Positions 4,160 to 20,214 of a stretch of 33,898 bases of DNA are shown here, piece after piece (positions within the stretch are counted from its first letter, which is position 1; the number at the start of each line of letters is the position of its first letter). This stretch comes from an uncultured Coriobacteriaceae bacterium (lineage in GTDB: Bacteria > Actinomycetota > Coriobacteriia > Coriobacteriales > Atopobiaceae): contig CACXDP010000150.1 of the NCBI GenBank assembly GCA_902766445.1, forward strand, positions 1-33,898. Direction: 5' to 3'. A program made the position numbers and the translations under genes. The notes below the pieces were generated by a model. The model made no database searches. It saw only the letters and a list, made by a program, of their open reading frames with translations, and was not told where the DNA came from.

Positions 4160-5089
4160 ATGAGACTAGATGCTAGCGCCTACGAGAGATGCACGCTCTG
4201 CCCACGTCGTTGCGGAGCACGGCGGGCAGAAGGTCAGCGAGGCGTATGCGGCTGCACATCCGAGCTTCTGGTGGCTCGTGCCGCCCTGCATTTCTGGGAG
4301 GAACCTCCCATCTCGGGTGAGGCTGGATCAGGAGCGATATTTTTCTCCGGATGCCCGCTTCGCTGCGTCTTTTGCCAGAACGAGACGATCTCGCACGAGG
4401 GTTTCGGCATCGGAGTAAGCACGGCCCGCCTCACCGAGATGATGCTCGAGCTTCAGGACCAAGGTGCCCTCAATATCAACCTCGTGACACCGCTCCACTA
4501 CGCCCCGCACGTCGTCGTCGCCATCAAGCGCGCACGCGAGAACGGGCTTACGATTCCCATAGTGTGCAACACCTCGGGATACGAGCGGCCAGAGCTCATT
4601 CGCGAACTTGGCGACGTTATCGACATATGGCTGACCGACTTCAAATACGCCTCAAGCGACCTGGCACGACAACTCTCGGGAGCCGATGACTACCCGGCCA
4701 TCGCGACTGAGGCACTCGCGGAGATGCTGTCCCTGCTCAGGGCTCGCGGTGGCCGTCGCGTAACCGCTGACGGAACGATGCTTCAGGGCATCATCGTGCG
4801 CCACCTCGTCTTGCCTGGCCACGCCGATGACTCGTGCGCCGTCGTGAGCCGAGTATGGGAAATCGCGGGCAATGAGGTCGACCTTTCGATCATGAACCAA
4901 TACACGCCAAATGCCCGCTGCCGCACACGCAAAGACGGACTTCAGAATGCCGTGAGCGAGGAAGAATACGACCTCGTCGTGTGCCATGCTGACGAGGTCG
5001 GGTTCGAGAACATCTGGTGGCAGGAGGGTGGCACCGTTGGCGAGAGCTTTATCCCCGCCTTCGATGCCACCGGCGTAAGGAGAGACTAA
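4160..5089 (+). CDS. PflX-type radical SAM protein (PFL-activase homologue), 309 aa
   Basis: A radical SAM enzyme of the group related to pyruvate formate-lyase activating proteins. The N-terminus has a separate cysteine cluster typical of the PflX group (C11, C14, C18, C30, in CTLCPRRCGARR...GVCG). The catalytic CxxxCxxC is C65-P-L-R-C69-V-F-C72, which would bind the [4Fe-4S] cluster and SAM. The rest fits a partial TIM barrel, ending with SIMNQYTPNARC. No glycyl-radical enzyme lies next to it, so its substrate is unknown. The ATG at 4160 has a GAGGA box about 11 bases upstream. The gene starts after the tRNA-Ala terminator. Its stop codon overlaps the stop of the convergent acyltransferase gene (4 shared bases). 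Confidence 0.88.
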   Translation: MRLDASAYERCTLCPRRCGARRAEGQRGVCGCTSELLVARAALHFWEEPPISGEAGSGAIFFSGCPLRCVFCQNETISHEGFGIGVSTARLTEMMLELQDQGALNINLVTPLHYAPHVVVAIKRARENGLTIPIVCNTSGYERPELIRELGDVIDIWLTDFKYASSDLARQLSGADDYPAIATEALAEMLSLLRARGGRRVTADGTMLQGIIVRHLVLPGHADDSCAVVSRVWEIAGNEVDLSIMNQYTPNARCRTRKDGLQNAVSEEEYDLVVCHADEVGFENIWWQEGGTVGESFIPAFDATGVRRD

Positions 5090-7662
5090 TCCTTGCTTGT
5101 GCTGTCGGAATCGCTAGTGCTGGTATCAGACCCTGTACTCGAATCCGACTTCGCCGTACTCGAGCCGGACCCCGTCTCGGATGTGGACTCATCGCTGTCA
5201 GAGGTGCTTCCGCTACCACCGTCATCCTCGCTGTCACTTGAGCTGGACTCGCTCGTCCCAGACTCATCTGTGCTCTCGGTATCGCTTGAATCATCAGAGT
5301 CGCTGGTATAGCTGTAGACGTAGTCGTACGAGCCGTACATCTCCTCGATCTCCTCTTCATTCTCGGAGGGCTCTGCATCGGGATTGCGAACCTTGACCTT
5401 CTCCTTGACGAGACTCACGTAGGCGGCGATACCCTCCTCAGTCAGATGTACGCCATCGGCCTCAAACCAGTCGTCGTGATCCTTCGAGGCAGAGAACCAA
5501 TCAATGACTTGCACGTTCGGGGTGGTTGCCGCGTTGTCAATCATCTGGTTGTTCGGATCCTGCCAAGACCCTCCTCGCACGTTGACAATCCAAAGGTCCT
5601 TGTCTTTGCCGACGGCGTTCACGAAGTCGCTCACGTCGTTCGCCGAGAGCTGCCCCTCGTTGCCAATAGCCAAGACGACAGCAGTACCCACCACGTCCTG
5701 CTTCACATAGTTGAGGTAAGCCTTCGTGACGTCCTGGGGTTTGCGTCCGTCAGCCGTGTCGATGATACCCTTGGGGAAGGCCTTCGCCATGGCGTCAGCG
5801 GCACCAAGGCTCACGGTGTCACCCATAAAGGTAACGTCATAGACGGTATTCGTGTCGTCAGGAACCTCGTACTCCATGGTGTCCACCACGAGCTTAGCAA
5901 AGGCATCTCTTCCATCCCACGTGAGATGGATACCGTCCTCTATGAGCCAGTCCTCATGACCCTCTGTCGCGCCGTTCCAATCGATAAGATGCACGTTGTC
6001 ATAGTGCTCCACATACTCGTCAATGAGCGCGTTGTTGTCTATGTCCTTTGCGTTGGGACTGCGCAGGTTCACGAGCCACAGCTGGCGATCCTTGCCCACG
6101 AGCGCACGCAACTCATCCAAATCACTCTGGCTCAGGACTCCGTTAGTGCCAACGCTTATCACCACCTGGTCCCCCACGATGTTTGGTTCCTGGCTGAGAT
6201 AACCTCGCAACGCGGTGATGGCCTCACTTGCCTGACGCTCACCCATCGTGTCGATGAGTCCATGCGGGAAGGCTTCGTTGAGCTGTTCGTTCGCACCGAG
6301 CGACACCGAGTCGCCGATAAACACAACGTCGTAAACACCATCCTGCAAGGGCTTTTTCAGCGCGGTATGCATTACCTTGCGGTCCTCAGGTCTGTCACCC
6401 GCGATTGTCACTGGTTCCACCGTGATAAGTCCGTACACAGTGATGACGGTACCGATCAAGGTAAGCGCAAGAGCGGGAGCCATCACGCCGAGCTTCGCGC
6501 GAAGCGGTGACGCGCCGCGTGATTCATCCGCTTCTGCATCTTCGCGAGCGGGCCTGCCCAACTTACGCAAAGGCACCTCTACGAAACGGTACGACATCTC
6601 AGCCACCACGAAAATGATGACAAGCTCGAGCAGAAGATTCCACCATGGGATACCCGTCGTGTTGTTGAGCGGATTCATGAGCTCCAAAAGCGGGTAGTGC
6701 CACACATAGATGGCAAACGAGCGCGAGCCTATCCATGTGAGCGGCTTGAACGACATGACCTTGGCGAAATAGCTGCGATCGGGAACGAGTCCCGCAATCG
6801 CACCGATTGACAAGACCGAGCAGAGCAGAAAGCCCCCATAGTACGAGAAAGCCGTGTAACCCTCCGTGAAGAGCATCATGAGCACGATGCCGACAACGCA
6901 CAAAGGGCCGACGAGGATGGGTATGGTAGCAGCGAAGCCCTCGAGATGACGCGCCCTGCTCTTGCTCATGCGATCAAATGGCCAGACGATAGCCAACCAG
7001 CAACCCAGAAGAAGGCTCATCGCACGTGTGTCCGTGCCGTAGTACGGTCTCGACGGGTCAGCACCGGGAACATACAGCAACGCCATGAGCAGCGCGGAAA
7101 ATAGAGCCACCACAAGCGTTCCGACACTCACCATCCGTCTCGGGACCTTCTTGCGCATCAGCAGGTAAAAGATCGGCGGCCAGATGAGGTAGAACTGCGC
7201 CTCAATGGCAAGCGACCAGAAGTGCGTCAGCGGCGAAGGATTGCCCGCCGCGGCAAAGTACGACTCGTTGCTAAAAATCTTCGTCCAGTTAATCACCATG
7301 AGTAGGGCGGGAATGATGTCGGGGCGCATCTTTGTAAAGAGCGCCGCATCGGCGAATGCGCATACTGCCCCCGTCACCGCCACAAACACGAGGCAGGTCG
7401 GCATAAGCCGAGCAATACGGCGACGCCAAAACGAGCCGAGACTGATGGTACCCCGCGTCTTGCTGAACTCGCGCATGAGTCCCGCGGTCACCAAATAGCC
7501 CGAAAGCACAAAGAGAACCGTTACGCCTAGGAGTCCACCCCCACACCAGCTTAGTCGCATGTGATAAGCAATAACACCCAAGGCACAGAGCGCCCTCAGA
7601 CCATCGAGAGAGTCGACATAGCGCGACGTAGGCTTAGCCTGCGTTTGTCCCATCTGAGCCAT
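5086..7662 (-). CDS. Membrane O-acyltransferase (acyltransferase 3) with two SGNH domains and a Ser/Asp-rich tail, 858 aa
   Basis: An OatA-like envelope-modifying enzyme. Residues about 15-410 form an acyltransferase-3 domain with about ten membrane helices; DGLRALCALGVIAYH carries the conserved His34. After a further helix (about 390-415) come two extracytoplasmic SGNH domains. The first (about 440-600) has GDSVSLGA (Ser452), VGTNG (Asn507) and DGIHLT (Asp576, His579). The second (about 608-760) is a recent-looking copy with GDTVSLGA (Thr616 for Ser), IGNEG for VGTNG, and an intact DGVHLT. The last 80 or so residues are almost only Ser, Asp, Thr, Glu and Gly. The start at 7662 follows AAGGGGAG; the longer frame lacks family similarity. 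The substrate (peptidoglycan or a surface glycan) is not shown. It is divergent from a WecA/TagO gene, consistent with an envelope role. Confidence 0.9.
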   Translation of the reverse strand: MAQMGQTQAKPTSRYVDSLDGLRALCALGVIAYHMRLSWCGGGLLGVTVLFVLSGYLVTAGLMREFSKTRGTISLGSFWRRRIARLMPTCLVFVAVTGAVCAFADAALFTKMRPDIIPALLMVINWTKIFSNESYFAAAGNPSPLTHFWSLAIEAQFYLIWPPIFYLLMRKKVPRRMVSVGTLVVALFSALLMALLYVPGADPSRPYYGTDTRAMSLLLGCWLAIVWPFDRMSKSRARHLEGFAATIPILVGPLCVVGIVLMMLFTEGYTAFSYYGGFLLCSVLSIGAIAGLVPDRSYFAKVMSFKPLTWIGSRSFAIYVWHYPLLELMNPLNNTTGIPWWNLLLELVIIFVVAEMSYRFVEVPLRKLGRPAREDAEADESRGASPLRAKLGVMAPALALTLIGTVITVYGLITVEPVTIAGDRPEDRKVMHTALKKPLQDGVYDVVFIGDSVSLGANEQLNEAFPHGLIDTMGERQASEAITALRGYLSQEPNIVGDQVVISVGTNGVLSQSDLDELRALVGKDRQLWLVNLRSPNAKDIDNNALIDEYVEHYDNVHLIDWNGATEGHEDWLIEDGIHLTWDGRDAFAKLVVDTMEYEVPDDTNTVYDVTFMGDTVSLGAADAMAKAFPKGIIDTADGRKPQDVTKAYLNYVKQDVVGTAVVLAIGNEGQLSANDVSDFVNAVGKDKDLWIVNVRGGSWQDPNNQMIDNAATTPNVQVIDWFSASKDHDDWFEADGVHLTEEGIAAYVSLVKEKVKVRNPDAEPSENEEEIEEMYGSYDYVYSYTSDSDDSSDTESTDESGTSESSSSDSEDDGGSGSTSDSDESTSETGSGSSTAKSDSSTGSDTSTSDSDSTSKD

Positions 7663-8018
7663 GTAGACGCCACTCCCCTTCTTGCACCGTACACATATCA
7701 TCGTGTCAAAAGGATAGCGTACTGCTGTCCTTAAGCCAACACAAAAAGCGCCCCTGCGGTTGCTATTATGAACCCACCTCTCAAAGGTGGGTGTCCTCGT
7801 CGCCTGTTCCAGCTTCCCCAACAACGGAGGATCCCTGTACTGAGCACGAGATATGGACTCCCAAACAACACTTGTCGGTTCACCCAGTTTGCACCGCAGG
7901 AAACGCTACCTACATAGTAAGACTTTCGTTACATAAGAACAGTCTTGACATGTCGGCGATGTAAGAAAAAATAGAAAGATAGCAACGATTGACTGTCACG
8001 GAAGGAGGCGCATCGGCA
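7663..8018. other. Divergent intergenic region (356 bp) with hairpins, no gene recognised
   Basis: This lies between the acyltransferase (-) and WecA/TagO (+) starts. It holds an 8-bp perfect hairpin (ACCCACCT 7772-7779 / AGGTGGGT 7785-7792), a 7-bp hairpin (GGATAGC 7712-7718 / GCTGTCC 7724-7730, one G-U), an extended -10-like TGCTATTAT (7761-7769), and TTGACA at 7945-7950. No ORF here looks real. A small RNA (I considered 6S) is possible, but no closing stem could be found. Confidence 0.5.
7945..7974 (+). promoter_or_regulatory. Candidate promoter of the WecA/TagO gene
   Basis: A perfect -35 TTGACA (7945-7950) is followed after 17-18 bases by an A-rich AAAATA/AAATAG, a poor -10. It sits about 45 bases upstream of the start codon. 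Confidence 0.3.
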
Positions 8019-12940: not shown

Positions 12941-15283
12941 CTAGACCCTCCTCTTCATCTGGACAGAACCCTCACCGGGCATGATACGCCTCGCGTCAAA
13001 GACTGACGGAACACGGCTGATGGATGCAAGCAAGGAATCGAGCAAGCTCGCATCACTGATACTCACCATGAAACGCAGGCGGGCAACACCCTCACGCGTC
13101 GTCTGCGTAGAAGCAGACAGGATGTTTGCCGCCGCATCAGCCACCGCAATTGTGATGTCCTTGAGCAGGCCCATTCGGTCGGTAGCCTCAATGACTATCT
13201 CGACGTTGAACTCCGTGGCACCCGAGGTATCCCACTCGACCTCTATCATGCGCTCGGGATTATTCATGAGTGACGCCACGTTGGGACAACTGCTTCGATG
13301 TACCGAGACACCTCGACCGCGTGTAATAAAGCCCACGATGTCATCGCCAGCAACAGGATTGCAGCAATGTGCGAGATGTGCGAGCAGATCGGGGTCGCCC
13401 TTGACCACCACGCCGCAACTACCCCGCTTCTTTTTGCCCTTGGAGGCATGGGTACGCGGGACGCGCAGATGCTGCTCGCCACCACGGAGATCCTCGAGCG
13501 CCTGACGCTCCTCAGCCTCCTTGCGCGCTTGGGCGAGCTGTTCGGGCGAACCCGCCTCGAGTACGGCCTGGATACGGTTCGCAACCTGCTTGACCGAGCA
13601 CTTACCCAGATGTATCGCTTGAAAGAGCCTCTCGGGAGTGCGCGCATCGAACTGAGGGAGCACCTGCTCGATGGCCCGCGTGGTGCGCGCTGTGGATATG
13701 CCATAGCCGCGCTTGCGGAGCTCACGCGCAAGCTCGGCACGCCCCTGTTCAGCGTCATCGGCCTTGTTCACCGTCGAGAAGTACCTGCGAATCTTTGAGC
13801 GGGCAGACGGTGTGACCACGATGCCCATCCAGTCACGCGACGGACGGGCGTTTTTGTTTGTGAGGACCTCCACGCGGTCACCCATCTGCAGGTTATAGGT
13901 GAGCGGCACCACCGAACCGTTGACCTTGGCTCCCACGCAGTGATTGCCCACCTCAGTGTGGACTGCGTAGGCAAAGTCGAGCGGTGTTGACTCACGCCTG
14001 AGACTCACCACTTCGCCCTTCGGCGTAAATACAAAGATCTCCCCCTCAAAGAGGTCAACGCGGAGGTTGTTCAGGAACTCGTGCGGATCCCCTAGCTCGT
14101 CTTCGTTCACCCAGTCGAGACTGCGACGAATGTGATTGATCGTGGAATCGATGCTGCGATCGTCTTTGGACATTTTGCCTTGCGATCCGCCTGACTTCTT
14201 GTAAAGCCAGTGAGCCGCCACGCCATACTCAGCGTGCTCGTGCATCTCAGCCGTGCGAATCTGAACCTCGATGGGTCGCGCATCGGGACCAACGACCGTG
14301 GTATGCAGCGATTGGTAGAGGTTCGCCTTAGGCGTGGCAATGTAGTCCTTGAACCGTCCTGGAAGCGGATGCCATAGCGAGTGAACCGCGCCCAAAACCG
14401 AGTAACACTCCTCCACCGTGCTCGTGATGACACGCAATGCGATGAGGTCGTATATGTCGGTGAACTCCACGTCTCGCCGCTGCATCTTTTGGTAGATGGA
14501 CCAGAGATGCTTGGGCCTTCCCGTCACCTGGAAGCTACCGACTCCCACGCGGCGCAACTCGTCGGTGAGCGTCCTGATTGCCTCGTCGGTATCGCGCTCC
14601 CGCTGCGCCCGCGAATCCTGCACCATGCGCGCAATTCGCTCGTATTCCTCAGGCTCCAAGTAAAAGAACGAGAGGTCTTCCAGCTCCCACTTGATGGAAG
14701 AAATGCCCAGACGGTCAGCCAGGGGGGCGTAGACATCCATCGTCTCACGTGACTTGAACTCACGCTTGTGAGGCGGCAGCGCAGCGAGCGTCCGCATGTT
14801 GTGCAGGCGGTCGGCGATCTTTATGATAACGACGCGAATGTCCTTCGACATGGCGAGAACCATCTTGCGCAGGTTGAGAGCCTGCTTCTCGTCCATGTTT
14901 GATACTTGGATGTTTGTGAGCTTGGTGACGCCATCCACGAGCTCGGCGACGGTCTCCCCAAATCGCTCGGTGAGGTCATCAAGCGTCGCAGGAGTGTCTT
15001 CCACCGTATCGTGCAGAAGTGCGGCGCATACGGTGTCGGTATCCATGTGTAGGTCTTTCGCAAGGATGAGGGCCACTTCGACGGGATGGTTGATGTAGGG
15101 CTCACCAGACCTGCGCCGCTGCGTGCGATGGAACTCAGCCGCAAAGCGATAGGCGCGCTCGGTCTTTTCGCAGCCAGCCTTGTCCAAGTAGCTCGTACAG
15201 GCGCTCTGTAGCAGGCGGTAGTTGTCGGCACCGGGCGCATCAAGATCGCGCCCTTTATAAGCCCTCGTCTCCCTTACCCTCAT
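12941..15283 (-). CDS. rel: Bifunctional (p)ppGpp synthetase/hydrolase
   Basis: A long RelA/SpoT homologue controlling the stringent response in the cytoplasm and on ribosomes. In order: an HD hydrolase domain (HPVEVALILA, HDTVED at about 91-96, intact), a synthetase domain (GRFKDYIATPKANLYQSLHT, EVQIRTAEMHEHAEYGVAAHW) carrying the RxKD signature of bifunctional Rel enzymes, a TGS domain (about 416-476), a Cys-containing conserved region (HCCNPVAGDDIVGFITRGRGVSVH), and a C-terminal ACT domain (about 690-765). The start was taken at the ATG at 15283 with a GAAAGGGG box; the longer frame from a TTG at 15325 overlaps the upstream gene. It begins 19 bases after the recJ-like gene and is followed at 1 base by an MBL hydrolase. 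At 780 residues it has the family's usual length. Confidence 0.96.
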   Translation of the reverse strand: MRVRETRAYKGRDLDAPGADNYRLLQSACTSYLDKAGCEKTERAYRFAAEFHRTQRRRSGEPYINHPVEVALILAKDLHMDTDTVCAALLHDTVEDTPATLDDLTERFGETVAELVDGVTKLTNIQVSNMDEKQALNLRKMVLAMSKDIRVVIIKIADRLHNMRTLAALPPHKREFKSRETMDVYAPLADRLGISSIKWELEDLSFFYLEPEEYERIARMVQDSRAQRERDTDEAIRTLTDELRRVGVGSFQVTGRPKHLWSIYQKMQRRDVEFTDIYDLIALRVITSTVEECYSVLGAVHSLWHPLPGRFKDYIATPKANLYQSLHTTVVGPDARPIEVQIRTAEMHEHAEYGVAAHWLYKKSGGSQGKMSKDDRSIDSTINHIRRSLDWVNEDELGDPHEFLNNLRVDLFEGEIFVFTPKGEVVSLRRESTPLDFAYAVHTEVGNHCVGAKVNGSVVPLTYNLQMGDRVEVLTNKNARPSRDWMGIVVTPSARSKIRRYFSTVNKADDAEQGRAELARELRKRGYGISTARTTRAIEQVLPQFDARTPERLFQAIHLGKCSVKQVANRIQAVLEAGSPEQLAQARKEAEERQALEDLRGGEQHLRVPRTHASKGKKKRGSCGVVVKGDPDLLAHLAHCCNPVAGDDIVGFITRGRGVSVHRSSCPNVASLMNNPERMIEVEWDTSGATEFNVEIVIEATDRMGLLKDITIAVADAAANILSASTQTTREGVARLRFMVSISDASLLDSLLASISRVPSVFDARRIMPGEGSVQMKRRV

Positions 15284-15302
15284 GCGCCGACACCCCTTTC
15301 CC

Positions 15303-18300
15303 TCATCTGTCCACCATATTTCCAAAGCTCGGAACGATAGGCCTGTTTATGCGATCTATCAGCTCCTGCGAGGTGGCCGTGAGCGCCCAATCGCGGAAAC
15401 GAACGAATTCTGTCAACGAGTGCCTACCCTCAACGTAGCGAATGGAGCTCGTAAGGTCTGCGTGAATCGGCGATGGATTCATGATAATGGTACGGCTGTC
15501 TTCGAAACCCTCGACCTTAAGAAAGCCGAGCTCGCCAAAAACCGCAATCCCACTCGCCACTGCCGCCGTATCCAGCTGCACTTCCGGCTCCTGCGCGCGC
15601 ACGGCTTCAAGGAGGTCGGCATCAGCAAGCGACAGAGAGCCGTTACCCACACTTGCGGCTTCACGCCGGAGCACACGATACAATGCCACCAAGTCCTTGC
15701 GTGGCGGAGCAGCTGACGATAGCAGCTTCTCGTTGATTATCGCGTCCTTGCCACCAAACAACAGACGAATGTATGCCGGGGCACCATCTCGACCCGCACG
15801 TCCACTCATCTGATTGAATTCCGTCGCGCCAAACGGCATATGATAAAGAACCACGTTGCGGATGCCGGGCAGGTTGACACCCTCACCAAAAGCGCTCGTC
15901 GAGACGATGCAGCATAGGCCATCGCTTCTGAATGCCTGCTCGATTCGTCTCCGCAAATCGCGTGAGAGACCCGCATGATAGAACGCAATGCGTTCACCAA
16001 GTCCCTGCGCCCGGGACCTGAGCGTTCTCACGAGTGACACGGCCTGATCGCGAGAATTGACGTAGACGACGCACTTCTCGCCCGACGAGACGATGGACGA
16101 GAGATAGAGGTCACGATCGCGTAAGTCACGCTGGTCATCAAGCATGAGGTTGGGTCGCACCGTACGGTCAACAATGACGTCCTCCTCGCGTACCGAGAGC
16201 AGCCTGCATATCTCTCGGGCCACGGGCTCTGATGCCGTAGCCGTAACGGCCAATGCCGTTGGATTCCCTAATTCGCGCAAGATGCGATCGAGCTCCGTAT
16301 ACGCCTCCCTATCGCCTCCCTTGGCAGAGCCAGCATGGTGTGCCTCATCGACGACTACGAAGCCCACGTGCCCTGACCGCGCAAAGTCTCTCGTGTGGAT
16401 TGCCAAGAACTCAGGCGTCGTGAGCACGACATCGACATGCCTCTGTCGCAGGCCTTCAAAGATCTCGCTGCGCTCCGTTGCGTCAGACTCGCCCGTGAGC
16501 ACGCGAACGGATAGGCCCATCCTCGCAAATTCCTGTTCGAGATGAAAAGCCTGATCGGAAACAAGCGCTCGCAGCGGATACACAAAGACGCTCGCCATTC
16601 CCTTCGCCAAAGCCATGCGAGCCGCATGGATGTGAAAAATGAGCGACTTGCCACGCCCCGTCGCCATGACGCAGAGGGTGCTGTGGTTTTGCGCAAGTTT
16701 GTCTAGCGCCGCTTTCTGAGCCGGCAGCAAACTCGCATCTCCGATGAGTTGGGCACGCAGACGTTCAGTGAGCACGTCTGTTGATAGCTCAGCAAGCTGT
16801 GAGCGCACGCCCGCAATCTCATTCGTGAACGCACGACCCTGCAACGCAGAGAAAACGGCTGACTCTCGCTGACTCGAGAAGAGAACGTCGCTGCCATGCA
16901 TGCCGCCAGTTGGCGTCACCAAGGCAGCGGTTGGCACATCCTTAATACGGGTACCTTTCGACTGATAGAGTATGTCACGCACCATGAGCTTTGCTTGGGT
17001 GCGGCCCTGCCATGTCTCACTCACCGCGTCAACGACCAAGTCGACCATGTCCTCGCACGCGTAGGCTTGACTCATATGTGGGGCCCGAAACATGATGGCC
17101 GGTACGGAGCTCACGCCATCGGTCGCAACGAATCGCAAGTGATTGGCCTCGTAGCCTACACGAGCCCGGTTGCGCATAAACACTCCCTGCACGCCAAAGA
17201 GCGGACGCTTGTTGCCCTGTCCAAACGGCTGGAGCGTTTCAAGCGCCTGTATACCCGGCAAGTCGAGCTCGCCGAGAGACGCGATGGCAGTCACCTCTCC
17301 CAAGTCTTGGAACTGCTCCTCGGGCAATTCGGCCATGACCTGTTGAAGCCGACGACGGAACTCTCCGACTCTGTTTGCCTCACAAGTGACACCCACCGCA
17401 CCGGCATGTCCTCCGAAACGCACGAGGATGTCCGAGCACTGCTCCACCGCATGAAAGAGGTCCACCGAGCCAACGCTGCGCCCCGATCCTCGGGCAATAC
17501 CATCCTGCAAGGTGAAGACAATCGTCGGAACATGATAGATGCTCACGATGCGACTCGCAACGATACCCTTAACACCCTCATGCCAGCCCTCTCCCGCCAC
17601 AACGATGACGCGCTCACCATCGTAGGTAGCTTTGAGAAGCTTGATGGCCTCCTCGGAGAGAACCGACTCCGTCTCCCTGCGTTCGGCGTTAATGGATTCA
17701 AGGGATGCCGCCAGCATTGCCGCCTCTGCCGGGTTATCCGAGATCAGGAGGTCGAATGCCGCATCGGTGCTTCCCATGCGACCGGCGGCGTTGAGACGGG
17801 GAATGAGCGAAAACGGAAGATTATCGGAGGTAATCTGCGTAAGGTCACACTTTGCACTTGCGGCAAGCGCGACGATACCCGGTCTCGTAGACGAGCGCAT
17901 CCGGGCAATTCCTTCGGCTACGAGAGAGCGATTCTCGCCCTGCAGCAGCATCATGTCGGATATAGTGCCCAAAGCGGCAAGGTCCACATACGACCACCAG
18001 AGATCCGGATTGCCAAGCCAGCGCCCCAAGAGGCAAACGAGCTTGAGCGCAACCCCTGCGCCAGCCAACTCTCGCGACATACACGTGTCGGAAAGCTTGG
18101 GATCGGTGACGGGTACACCCTCCGGAACGAGGTCACCCGGCTCATGGTGATCGGTAATCACCACATCGACACCCTGCTCAAGTAGCCACGCAACCTCATG
18201 CTTTGCAGCTATGCCATTGTCGACCGTCACAATGAGATCAGGATGACAGTCATCGATAACTCTATGGAGCGCCTCGTGGGATAGTCCGTAGCCCTCGCCG

Positions 18301-18665
18301 AACCGATGGGGTATGTAAGGGTGCGCATGCGCACCAAGTGCCCTCAAGCCCAAAGTAAGCAGACAGGTAGACGTCATGCCGTCTACGTCGAAGTCGCCGT
18401 AGACGGCAATGGTCTCTCCGTCAATGATTGCACGCTCCACCCGTCGCGCAGCTTCTTCCATCCCCGGAATCTCAATTGGGTCGGTCCAATCCCGCTTGAG
18501 TGAAGGTTGCAGGAAACGAATGGCCTCCTGAGGCTCGCGCACGCCACGCGCACACAGAACACGCGCAACGAGGGGCGTCAGGCCAAGTCTCTCGCACAGC
18601 ACACGCTCGGACTCCCCATGACTGGGGAGCACCTCCCAGCGCTTGTTGTCGAGAAGACTCGCCAT
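15303..18665 (-). CDS. recJ: RecJ single-strand exonuclease fused to a RecQ-like DEAH helicase, 1120 aa
   Basis: One uninterrupted frame joins two repair activities. Residues 1-570 are RecJ: VYGDFDVDGMTST (88-100), VTVDNGIA, VITDHHEPG (the DHH motif, about 171-174), SLIPRLNAAGRMG, the DHHA1 motif RFGGHAGAVG (416-425) and an OB-like domain. Residues 625-1000 are a superfamily 2 helicase: MATGRGKS (motif I, 667-674), VVDEAHH (motif II, 771-777), AVTATAS (III), FYHAGLS (IV) and QMSGRAGRDG (VI, 952-961), closest in style to RecQ. The end (about 1040-1120) resembles the RecJ C-terminal domain of Firmicutes. By family it would unwind and degrade 5'-ended single strands in repair. A GAAGGAG box precedes the ATG. 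It sits between secD-like and rel genes in the leftward cluster. Confidence 0.92.
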   Translation of the reverse strand: MASLLDNKRWEVLPSHGESERVLCERLGLTPLVARVLCARGVREPQEAIRFLQPSLKRDWTDPIEIPGMEEAARRVERAIIDGETIAVYGDFDVDGMTSTCLLTLGLRALGAHAHPYIPHRFGEGYGLSHEALHRVIDDCHPDLIVTVDNGIAAKHEVAWLLEQGVDVVITDHHEPGDLVPEGVPVTDPKLSDTCMSRELAGAGVALKLVCLLGRWLGNPDLWWSYVDLAALGTISDMMLLQGENRSLVAEGIARMRSSTRPGIVALAASAKCDLTQITSDNLPFSLIPRLNAAGRMGSTDAAFDLLISDNPAEAAMLAASLESINAERRETESVLSEEAIKLLKATYDGERVIVVAGEGWHEGVKGIVASRIVSIYHVPTIVFTLQDGIARGSGRSVGSVDLFHAVEQCSDILVRFGGHAGAVGVTCEANRVGEFRRRLQQVMAELPEEQFQDLGEVTAIASLGELDLPGIQALETLQPFGQGNKRPLFGVQGVFMRNRARVGYEANHLRFVATDGVSSVPAIMFRAPHMSQAYACEDMVDLVVDAVSETWQGRTQAKLMVRDILYQSKGTRIKDVPTAALVTPTGGMHGSDVLFSSQRESAVFSALQGRAFTNEIAGVRSQLAELSTDVLTERLRAQLIGDASLLPAQKAALDKLAQNHSTLCVMATGRGKSLIFHIHAARMALAKGMASVFVYPLRALVSDQAFHLEQEFARMGLSVRVLTGESDATERSEIFEGLRQRHVDVVLTTPEFLAIHTRDFARSGHVGFVVVDEAHHAGSAKGGDREAYTELDRILRELGNPTALAVTATASEPVAREICRLLSVREEDVIVDRTVRPNLMLDDQRDLRDRDLYLSSIVSSGEKCVVYVNSRDQAVSLVRTLRSRAQGLGERIAFYHAGLSRDLRRRIEQAFRSDGLCCIVSTSAFGEGVNLPGIRNVVLYHMPFGATEFNQMSGRAGRDGAPAYIRLLFGGKDAIINEKLLSSAAPPRKDLVALYRVLRREAASVGNGSLSLADADLLEAVRAQEPEVQLDTAAVASGIAVFGELGFLKVEGFEDSRTIIMNPSPIHADLTSSIRYVEGRHSLTEFVRFRDWALTATSQELIDRINRPIVPSFGNMVDR

Positions 18666-18680
18666 TCATGCTCCTTCGTG

Positions 18681-20117
18681 CTAGGATTCCTCTGACTTCG
18701 AATCCTCACCTTCGGAGGCAGATGCCTCCAAGCCCCAAGCTGCGGGGTCTTCCTGCATGGAGCCGACAGCCAGAACCCTCATGAGCGGCACCTCAAAGAG
18801 CAGCACCGCCATCGTAGAGGCAATGGCGCCCAGCACGATGCCGAGGCCAAACTCACGCAACTGGGCGAACGGCAAGAAGAGAAGCACGAGCGAGACGACT
18901 ACGATTCCCATCAGGGGCAGCGCCATGGGATTCAGGGCGTCTGACACGGCGCTAAGCGAGGACCCGCGTACGCTCTTGCCCAAGCGAGCGAGCTCCTGGA
19001 AGCGCGCCGCGACAGCCCATGCCGCAACCACGCCACCAGCGCAGGCAAACACACCGCCTACAAGCGAGGGCATGGTGAGCACAAATACCTCGATGCGCGA
19101 GACGACAGCCATCAGGCCAATCATCAGGATGCCTTCGACGACCTCGCTCCCCAAGACTAGCAAACCGGTCTTCTTCATGCGCATGAAAGCGATGACGGCG
19201 ATCACGATGATCGCGACCGCGGCGGCACCAGCGAGCATCACTGCCGCCTTGTCACCCGCAACTGCTCCAATCTCGGTGGAGTCGGTAAGCTTGAGATTTG
19301 TCGGCAGGACCTCAGAGTCAAGAACGGCCTTGAGCGCCCTCGCCTCAGCCTCGCTGAAGCCACCGGATATGGACACCTGACCACCGTCAATCTTCTCCGA
19401 GACGTTCGGCGCAGAAATCACGTTGCCGTCTATCACGATGGCAATCGAGCCGTATTCCTTCGCAAGCTCCTCCGTGACGTCGGCAAACTTCTTTGCGCCT
19501 TCGTCATCGAAGTTGATCGTCACCGCATAGATGCCCTCGCTCACCATCACGACATCACATGAGGTAACGTTGTCGTTGTTGAGAAAAGCGGTGTAGGTGC
19601 CATCCTTGAGCGTGGCGTCCTTTGAGCCGGCATTGAGCAGGGAGAGGGCATCGGCATCACCGATATCGTCCACGCGTACGAACTCGAGCTTGCCCGCTCC
19701 ACCCACAGATTCGGCGATGCGCTTGCCCTCGACGTTCCATGGGAGCTTGATGACCACACCGTTGGATCCGCTAGGATCCGCAAGGTATTCCGACACGCCA
19801 ACATTACCGAGCCTGTCGCGTATGGTAGCGACCGCTTTGGACTGCTCGTCCGCAGAAAGGTCCTTGTCGGCAGTCATGGTCTGCGCCGTACCGCCCTTGA
19901 ACCACAGTCCTCGCGTGATACGTTCCTGAATAGGCCATGCGCACACGACGCTCAGCACGCAGCATATGACTACGAACGCTACCACCGCCACGCGGCGACG
20001 GCGGTCCTGTGCCAAGCGCTTGCCTCTATTTGCACGAGAATCGCGTCCCGTGCCTTCGCTCTCGTTCCATCCGGCGACACCCGTCTTGTGCGTGGTCGCC
20101 TCCTTGCCTCGGGCCAT
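18681..20117 (-). CDS. SecD-like preprotein translocase subunit, divergent, 478 aa
   Basis: An RND-type membrane protein assisting Sec export. There is an N-terminal Arg-rich cytoplasmic part, TM1 (about 44-62), a degenerate GLDLxGG motif (GLWFKGG, 70-76), a large extracytoplasmic domain ending in the hallmark SISGGFSEAEARALKAVL (about 250-267), then five hydrophobic segments. In the TM4 region, where SecD has AVDANVLIxER, this protein reads GVVAAWAVAAR: the Asp, Asn and Glu are gone. That Asp is implicated in proton coupling in SecDF. No secF or yajC lies next to it. The ATG at 20117 has an AGAAGGA box; longer frames have none as good. It lies 97 bases after tgt and 15 bases before the recJ-like gene. 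It may be a specialised or impaired SecD. Confidence 0.78.
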   Translation of the reverse strand: MARGKEATTHKTGVAGWNESEGTGRDSRANRGKRLAQDRRRRVAVVAFVVICCVLSVVCAWPIQERITRGLWFKGGTAQTMTADKDLSADEQSKAVATIRDRLGNVGVSEYLADPSGSNGVVIKLPWNVEGKRIAESVGGAGKLEFVRVDDIGDADALSLLNAGSKDATLKDGTYTAFLNNDNVTSCDVVMVSEGIYAVTINFDDEGAKKFADVTEELAKEYGSIAIVIDGNVISAPNVSEKIDGGQVSISGGFSEAEARALKAVLDSEVLPTNLKLTDSTEIGAVAGDKAAVMLAGAAAVAIIVIAVIAFMRMKKTGLLVLGSEVVEGILMIGLMAVVSRIEVFVLTMPSLVGGVFACAGGVVAAWAVAARFQELARLGKSVRGSSLSAVSDALNPMALPLMGIVVVSLVLLFLPFAQLREFGLGIVLGAIASTMAVLLFEVPLMRVLAVGSMQEDPAAWGLEASASEGEDSKSEES

Positions 20118-20214
20118 GAGTATTCCTTCTTTCGCTTCCATATGTCCTGCATATGAGTAACTTATGAAGTCTATCACTCACCACATAGCCGTTACAAGGG
20201 TGAATTTCTTGACA

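Follow-up and report, generated by a model that had tools for sequence, protein, structure and literature searches.

Does the long open reading frame (ORF) near the middle of the window (the whole stretch of 33,898 nucleotides analysed here) encode a genuine union of a RecJ nuclease with a RecQ-like helicase, and if so, what kind of motor is this, what could it do and where does it come from? In textbook accounts of the RecF pathway, RecJ and RecQ carry out resection as a pair. On blunt or 3'-tailed ends, RecJ depends on the 3'-5' helicase RecQ to begin, and the two cooperate as separate proteins, between which direct contact was not found (PMC4846377; PMC11442139). We consider it likely that the ordinary, vertically inherited recJ of Coriobacteriia encodes a single-chain nuclease-helicase, probably an old form in Gram-positives from which RecA1 was lost elsewhere; from the comparisons below we infer its polarity, coupling, role in repair and evolutionary direction.

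The first-pass annotation had read the frame as one polypeptide, and its coordinates, frame and continuity proved correct. The ORF reading of the window gives 1120 codons from an ATG start on the minus strand, with zero internal stops, in the following setting:

12941..15325, minus strand: relA/spoT, directly downstream of the fusion gene, overlapping the recJ stop if a TTG start is used
15303..18665, minus strand: recJ-helicase fusion gene, ATG start, 1120 aa, with homologues in 80 of 80 loci
18681..20177, minus strand: secD-like gene, directly upstream of the fusion gene

The ORF contains no frameshift or stop, which the annotation had named as grounds against the fusion, and the 80 best genome loci, from Atopobiaceae, Coriobacteriaceae and uncultured Coriobacteriia metagenome-assembled genomes (MAGs), all carry the same fusion at full length (54–93% identity). 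Because 80 independent loci share it, a chance frame or an assembly error is excluded, and a sequencing or frameshift artefact is ruled out by the same loci together with the intact ORF; the RecJ-helicase fusion is real and conserved. A relA homologue follows recJ in 76 of the 80 related loci, and Listeria recJ lies between secDF and apt-relA. With sec genes upstream and relA downstream, this is the usual Gram-positive recJ locus. Elsewhere in the window, a 912-aa ORF on the minus strand (5086-7824) gave a partial match to the acetyltransferase SucT model at 87.6 bits, far below the cut-off of 1275.

Within the fusion protein, the domains are arranged as follows:

17964..18413, minus strand: DHH phosphoesterase domain (aa 85-234), Pfam match over cut-off, GDxDxDG and DHH motifs invariant
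17331..17612, minus strand: DHHA1 domain (aa 352-445), Pfam match over cut-off, GGHxxAxG invariant
16974..17279, minus strand: RecJ_OB, an OB fold (aa 463-564), Pfam match over cut-off
16827..16955, minus strand: linker (aa 571-613), disordered at pLDDT under 50; this is where relatives from beyond the order have a HIRAN domain
16221..16724, minus strand: helicase RecA1 domain (aa 648-815), with motif 0 Q, TGRGKS, PLR, DEAHH and AT
15711..16190, minus strand: helicase RecA2 domain (aa 826-985), with motifs IV, V (TSAFGEG) and VI (QxxGRxGR)
15306..15710, minus strand: C-terminal helices and winged helix (WH; aa 986-1120), homologous to the last part of RecJ proteins of the PF10141 type

Residues 30-565 match the NCBIfam recJ model TIGR00644 with 455.2 bits (cut-off 396.9). 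The Pfam models DEAD (aa 648-815) and Helicase_C (aa 858-961) both match far above their cut-offs, and motifs I, II, III, V and VI, spread over two RecA domains, place the second enzyme among the SF2 helicases. Among 59 aligned homologues, the most distant at 37% identity, GDxDxDG, DHH and GGHxxAxG of the nuclease are invariant, as are the Q motif, TxRGKS, PLR, DExHH, AT, TSAFGEG and NQxxGRxGR of the helicase, with invariant residues in each of motifs 0, I, Ia, II, III, IV, V and VI. Codon third positions vary far more than first and second positions, a pattern seen in each of RecJ, RecA1, RecA2 and WH. This excess, together with the invariant motifs, indicates that both enzymes are under selection. 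The full DHH/DHHA1 nuclease and intact helicase core of the first reading are confirmed. The "RecJ_C-like end" was right in substance: the last ~135 residues form the WH region common to PF10141-type RecJ C-termini, with PF10141 (ssDNA-exonuc_C) itself remaining below cut-off in the window protein and matching a relative (L163) with E 0.028 over aa 1028-1178 and a helicase-less RecJ (L186) with E 0.0019.

The fusion is no peculiarity of one lineage. A RecJ match was found in 144 of 149 genomes of the class, by our own count in frames over 900 aa in about 135 of the 144. Among the shorter frames, two run off the contig end (L174, L176), two are genuine and the rest are fragments or unchecked; every other class locus fetched at full length has the helicase in frame. 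The fusion spans about 20 family-level groups of Coriobacteriia, and among the fully read loci of the class no split form, with the helicase as a neighbouring ORF, occurs. Beyond the class, the same helicase recurs in a family of this phylum (f27), in four genomes whose RecJ proteins measure 1230-1279 aa; in the remaining RecJs fetched from the phylum (573-981 aa), sequence search detects no helicase. The search for long RecJ proteins and their taxonomic spread, proposed with the first reading, upholds the fusion and shows it to be the standard RecJ of a whole class and of one further family. Scans of viral contigs revealed no viral spread of the fusion, and the best phage records match the RecJ half only. 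UNVERIFIED "Bacteriophage sp." faecal contigs (L253-L260; MT83xxxx) carry Firmicute-type recJ genes and are probably bacterial DNA filed as phage.

The two genuine short forms (G007 and G091, one genus) encode RecJs of 566-571 aa with relA directly next and are nested inside the fused clade; this is a clean secondary loss of the helicase. The helicase motifs, expected to be kept in close relatives, are retained in 59 of 59 aligned sequences, and the expectation fails in these two members of one genus, so the helicase is not indispensable. The same genus contains fused RecJs (G003 and G005, about 1210 aa) as well as loss of HIRAN and helicase (G007:C6, L173, 571 aa; G091:C20, L175, 566 aa), and offers a natural knockout for phenotype comparison.

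What kind of helicase was joined to RecJ? The best model match of the helicase part is RecQ (TIGR00614), at 167.1 bits and so below the cut-off of 219.8, and the highest score among the fused proteins of the class is about 217. The nearest solved structures by sequence are RecQ, WRN, BLM and RECQL5. Structure prediction of the full protein (AF2; mean pLDDT 86, pTM 0.54), another check proposed at the outset, recovered a RecJ core matching solved RecJ and a helicase core resembling RecQ/WRN/BLM: residues 627-1111 match the catalytic cores of these three with Z 23-27, and RecA2+WH folded alone matches RecQ with Z 21. However, the aromatic-rich loop that follows DEAH in RecQ (pattern S.WGH.F) is present in 0 of 59 fused sequences, which read HxGxAxxGxRxAY at this position; eight stand-alone RecQs of the class read SQWG[HQ]DFRPxY. 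Neither RecQ_Zn_bind nor RQC nor HRDC has a Pfam match in the window protein. Between the fused WH and the C-terminal region of RecQ, profile comparison finds no match (probability about 2%), and RecQ RQC was dropped as a source of WH. The tree groups the fused helicases in a single clade that is sister to the stand-alone RecQs and not nested within them. "RecQ-like helicase" is therefore apt in that the core is nearest to RecQ, and too specific if taken to mean RecQ itself, given the sub-threshold score, the missing loop, zinc-binding, RQC and HRDC elements, and the sister position.

The annotation had also advised looking for a separate recQ, and a stand-alone RecQ is present in the window's own genome. 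Because of this and of the separate clade of the fused helicases, fusion to the genome's own RecQ was rejected. Across the class, a stand-alone RecQ over cut-off occurs in 28 of 59 genomes and is absent from 31, 27 of which have the fused helicase; in G007 no match to the RecQ family reached the threshold applied. Two features of this survey deserve mention. The two identical head-to-head RecQ matches on one short contig of G000 (C233:550-3155; L004, L005) are a palindromic assembly product, and this MAG, with 4.07 Mb in 484 contigs against mostly 1.5-2.8 Mb in the same family, may be inflated or mixed. In addition, two ORFs of 1173-1195 aa (G010:C2:2097-3245; G013:C7:8034-9182) contain a RecQ-like helicase over cut-off (about 270 bits) alongside additional domains and are not RecJ fusions.

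The fused proteins differ among themselves in the region joining the two enzymes. Full-length class members fetched from beyond the window's order all have a HIRAN domain separating OB fold and helicase, as do the f27 proteins; this domain was not found in the best 80 loci, and a search of the window's linker for a hidden copy yielded none. The ancestral form probably also had HIRAN, which was then lost in the window's order.

A further question is the origin of the RecJ C-terminus in other Gram-positives. From 16 actinobacterial RecJs without a helicase, we took the regions that follow the OB fold and compared them by hhalign with parts of the fused protein. Their profile matches fused RecA2+WH with a probability of 98.8% (E 8e-17), RecA2 alone with 93.5% and WH alone with 96.9%; matches to fused RecA1 and to the RecJ core are under 1%, and 20 column shuffles and a reversal reach at most 0.2%. 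Against RecA2 of RecQ, the same profile gives 0.8%, no match, whereas fused RecA2 matches RecQ RecA2 at 99.9%; the fused protein is thus the link between these tails and RecQ. Some tails match the fused part even as single sequences (L182, E 1.5e-11; L186, 5e-8; L189, 6e-7), and several others do not on their own. At the level of profiles, this demonstrates that the unassigned RecJ C-terminus of helicase-less actinobacteria is homologous to fused RecA2+WH. A RecA1 remnant was sought in helicase-less RecJs, and none was found. Helicase-less actinobacterial RecJs (L186, L196-L200) have a cysteine cluster of the CxxxCDxxC type right after the OB fold and before the RecA2-like region, a possible metal site.

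For Firmicutes, 12 RecJ tails, mostly from gut-metagenome records filed as phage, match WH with 97.5% (E 5e-12) and give no match to RecA2 alone, and in some Clostridia the tail is WH-like and RecA2 is absent. The S. aureus RecJ structure 8y30 aligns to model residues 7-1108 over 735 of its 756 residues, a match weaker than its length suggests, since with the high rmsd of 28 there is no rigid-body superposition of all domains at once. Its absence among the matches listed for RecA2+WH folded alone excludes nothing, that list being filled by RecQ-type chains. For the earlier suggestion that the Firmicute RecJ C-terminus descends from such a fusion, the evidence is strong for WH only; the RecA2 part can be demonstrated in RecJs of actinobacteria, and Bacilli give no more than a hint of it.

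These tails fit a course in which RecA1 was lost, RecA2 decayed and WH was retained. We propose that a RecJ-(HIRAN)-RecA1-RecA2-WH protein is probably old in Gram-positive lineages, and that RecA1 was dropped in most others, where a decayed RecA2, the WH or both would remain as the C-terminal domain of RecJ. The boldest version, to which we give about equal weight for and against, is that a RecJ-HIRAN-helicase resection machine was the early Gram-positive RecJ, that it survives as a fossil in the RecJ C-terminal domain of Actinomycetota and Firmicutes, with RecA1 deleted, RecA2 stripped of its motifs and WH kept, and that Coriobacteriia still run the original. In the RecJ-core tree, f27 stands apart from Coriobacteriia, beside a RecJ with a RecA2+WH remnant (L182). 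This placement favours an old fusion with repeated loss; since f27 is not grouped with Coriobacteriia, it also allows lateral transfer of the 3' half as an alternative to ancient descent. The converse history, in which helicase-less RecJ is ancestral, a RecQ-like core was inserted late into a WH-tailed RecJ, and the RecA2-like regions of other actinobacteria came from that very insertion by lateral exchange, could draw on the same f27 cores and on the Clostridia tails that lack RecA2. We regard it as possible but doubtful, as the helicase parts form one clade, the HIRAN-helicase unit is common to both fused groups, and the RecA2 remnants in many helicase-less families match fused RecA2 and not RecQ.

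For the function, we propose the following hypothetical mechanism, in which (i) the SF2 RecQ-like motor would load at a single-strand/double-strand junction; (ii) it would move 3' to 5' on the 3'-ended strand, a polarity taken from family membership, and peel off the 5'-ended strand; (iii) the RecJ active site of the same chain would degrade the peeled strand 5' to 3'; (iv) 3' single-stranded DNA would be left for RecA. One chain can do both, because a 3'-5' motor and a 5'-3' nuclease on opposite strands advance into the duplex in a common direction. As judged from family membership, the protein would probably resect ends and gaps, with 3'-5' unwinding driven by ATP and coupled in cis to 5'-3' degradation. 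In the relatives, HIRAN, situated between nuclease and helicase, may hold the 3' DNA end; HIRAN has been suggested to bind 3' single-stranded DNA ends, and that of HLTF directs fork reversal (PMC4666394). A survey for AddA gave no match over cut-off, which is uninformative on the presence of RecBCD-type resection.

Unwinding, as opposed to translocation, is not assured, because the RecQ loop that couples ATP hydrolysis to DNA is missing. The motor could instead be a translocase on double- or single-stranded DNA that feeds RecJ or remodels forks in the manner of HLTF, leaving the regressed or lagging 5' end to be trimmed by RecJ. The loop, missing in 59 of 59 sequences, and the HIRAN domain of the relatives, given its role in HLTF (PMC4666394), would suit such an activity; we nevertheless consider it unlikely, since the core is nearest to the 3'-5' helicases of the RecQ family in both sequence and structure, and the window's own order does without HIRAN. 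That the halves are merely co-translated and act separately or are split by proteolysis, so that their coupling would be functionally meaningless, as the disordered, poorly conserved linker might suggest, is very improbable for a fusion that persists over about 20 family-level groups and has no split form among the fully read loci of the class.

A natural single-chain RecJ-helicase makes RecJ/RecQ coupling directly testable with one purified protein, and it also occurs in genomes without a stand-alone RecQ. Coriobacteriia are a gut-associated class common in humans. The architecture is presumably already displayed in domain databases, and the motor is easily overlooked, because the fused proteins are likely filed simply as RecJ. 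We found no description of the fusion, of RecJ with HIRAN or of a relation between the RecJ C-terminal domain and helicases in the open-licence literature; a review on S. aureus terms this domain nonconserved, and the fusion suggests where the C-terminal domain of Gram-positive RecJ, so far without an assignment, may come from.

Among known systems, SaDinG (PMC12345164) and WRN are likewise single chains in which a nuclease is joined to an SF2 helicase; their nuclease is a 3'-5' exonuclease of another fold, and DinG belongs to a different helicase family. Deinococcus RecJ likewise has an extra C-terminal domain (domain IV), which is needed in vivo; unlike the region described here, it is short, binds the SSB tail and has no helicase motifs (PMC4663267, PMC4846377), and its authors found no homologue (PMC4663267). 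We do not claim domain IV as a helicase remnant: the Foldseek alignment passes the OB fold, and most VIA alignments stop there. With the RecQ family (TIGR00614, E. coli RecQ, WRN, BLM, RECQL5), the fused core shares the Q motif, the DEAH box and the SF2 motifs, and it differs in its score below cut-off, its lack of the aromatic-rich loop, RecQ-type zinc site, RQC and HRDC, its separate clade and its attachment to a nuclease. Firmicute RecJ with PF10141 (S. aureus RecJ, PDB 8y30) has no RecA1 and no helicase motifs, and its RecA2-like part is decayed or absent. Yet it has DHH, DHHA1, OB and C-terminal WH in common with the window protein, its gene is likewise followed by apt and/or relA, and 8y30 aligns nearly end to end with the fused protein, RecA1 being skipped.
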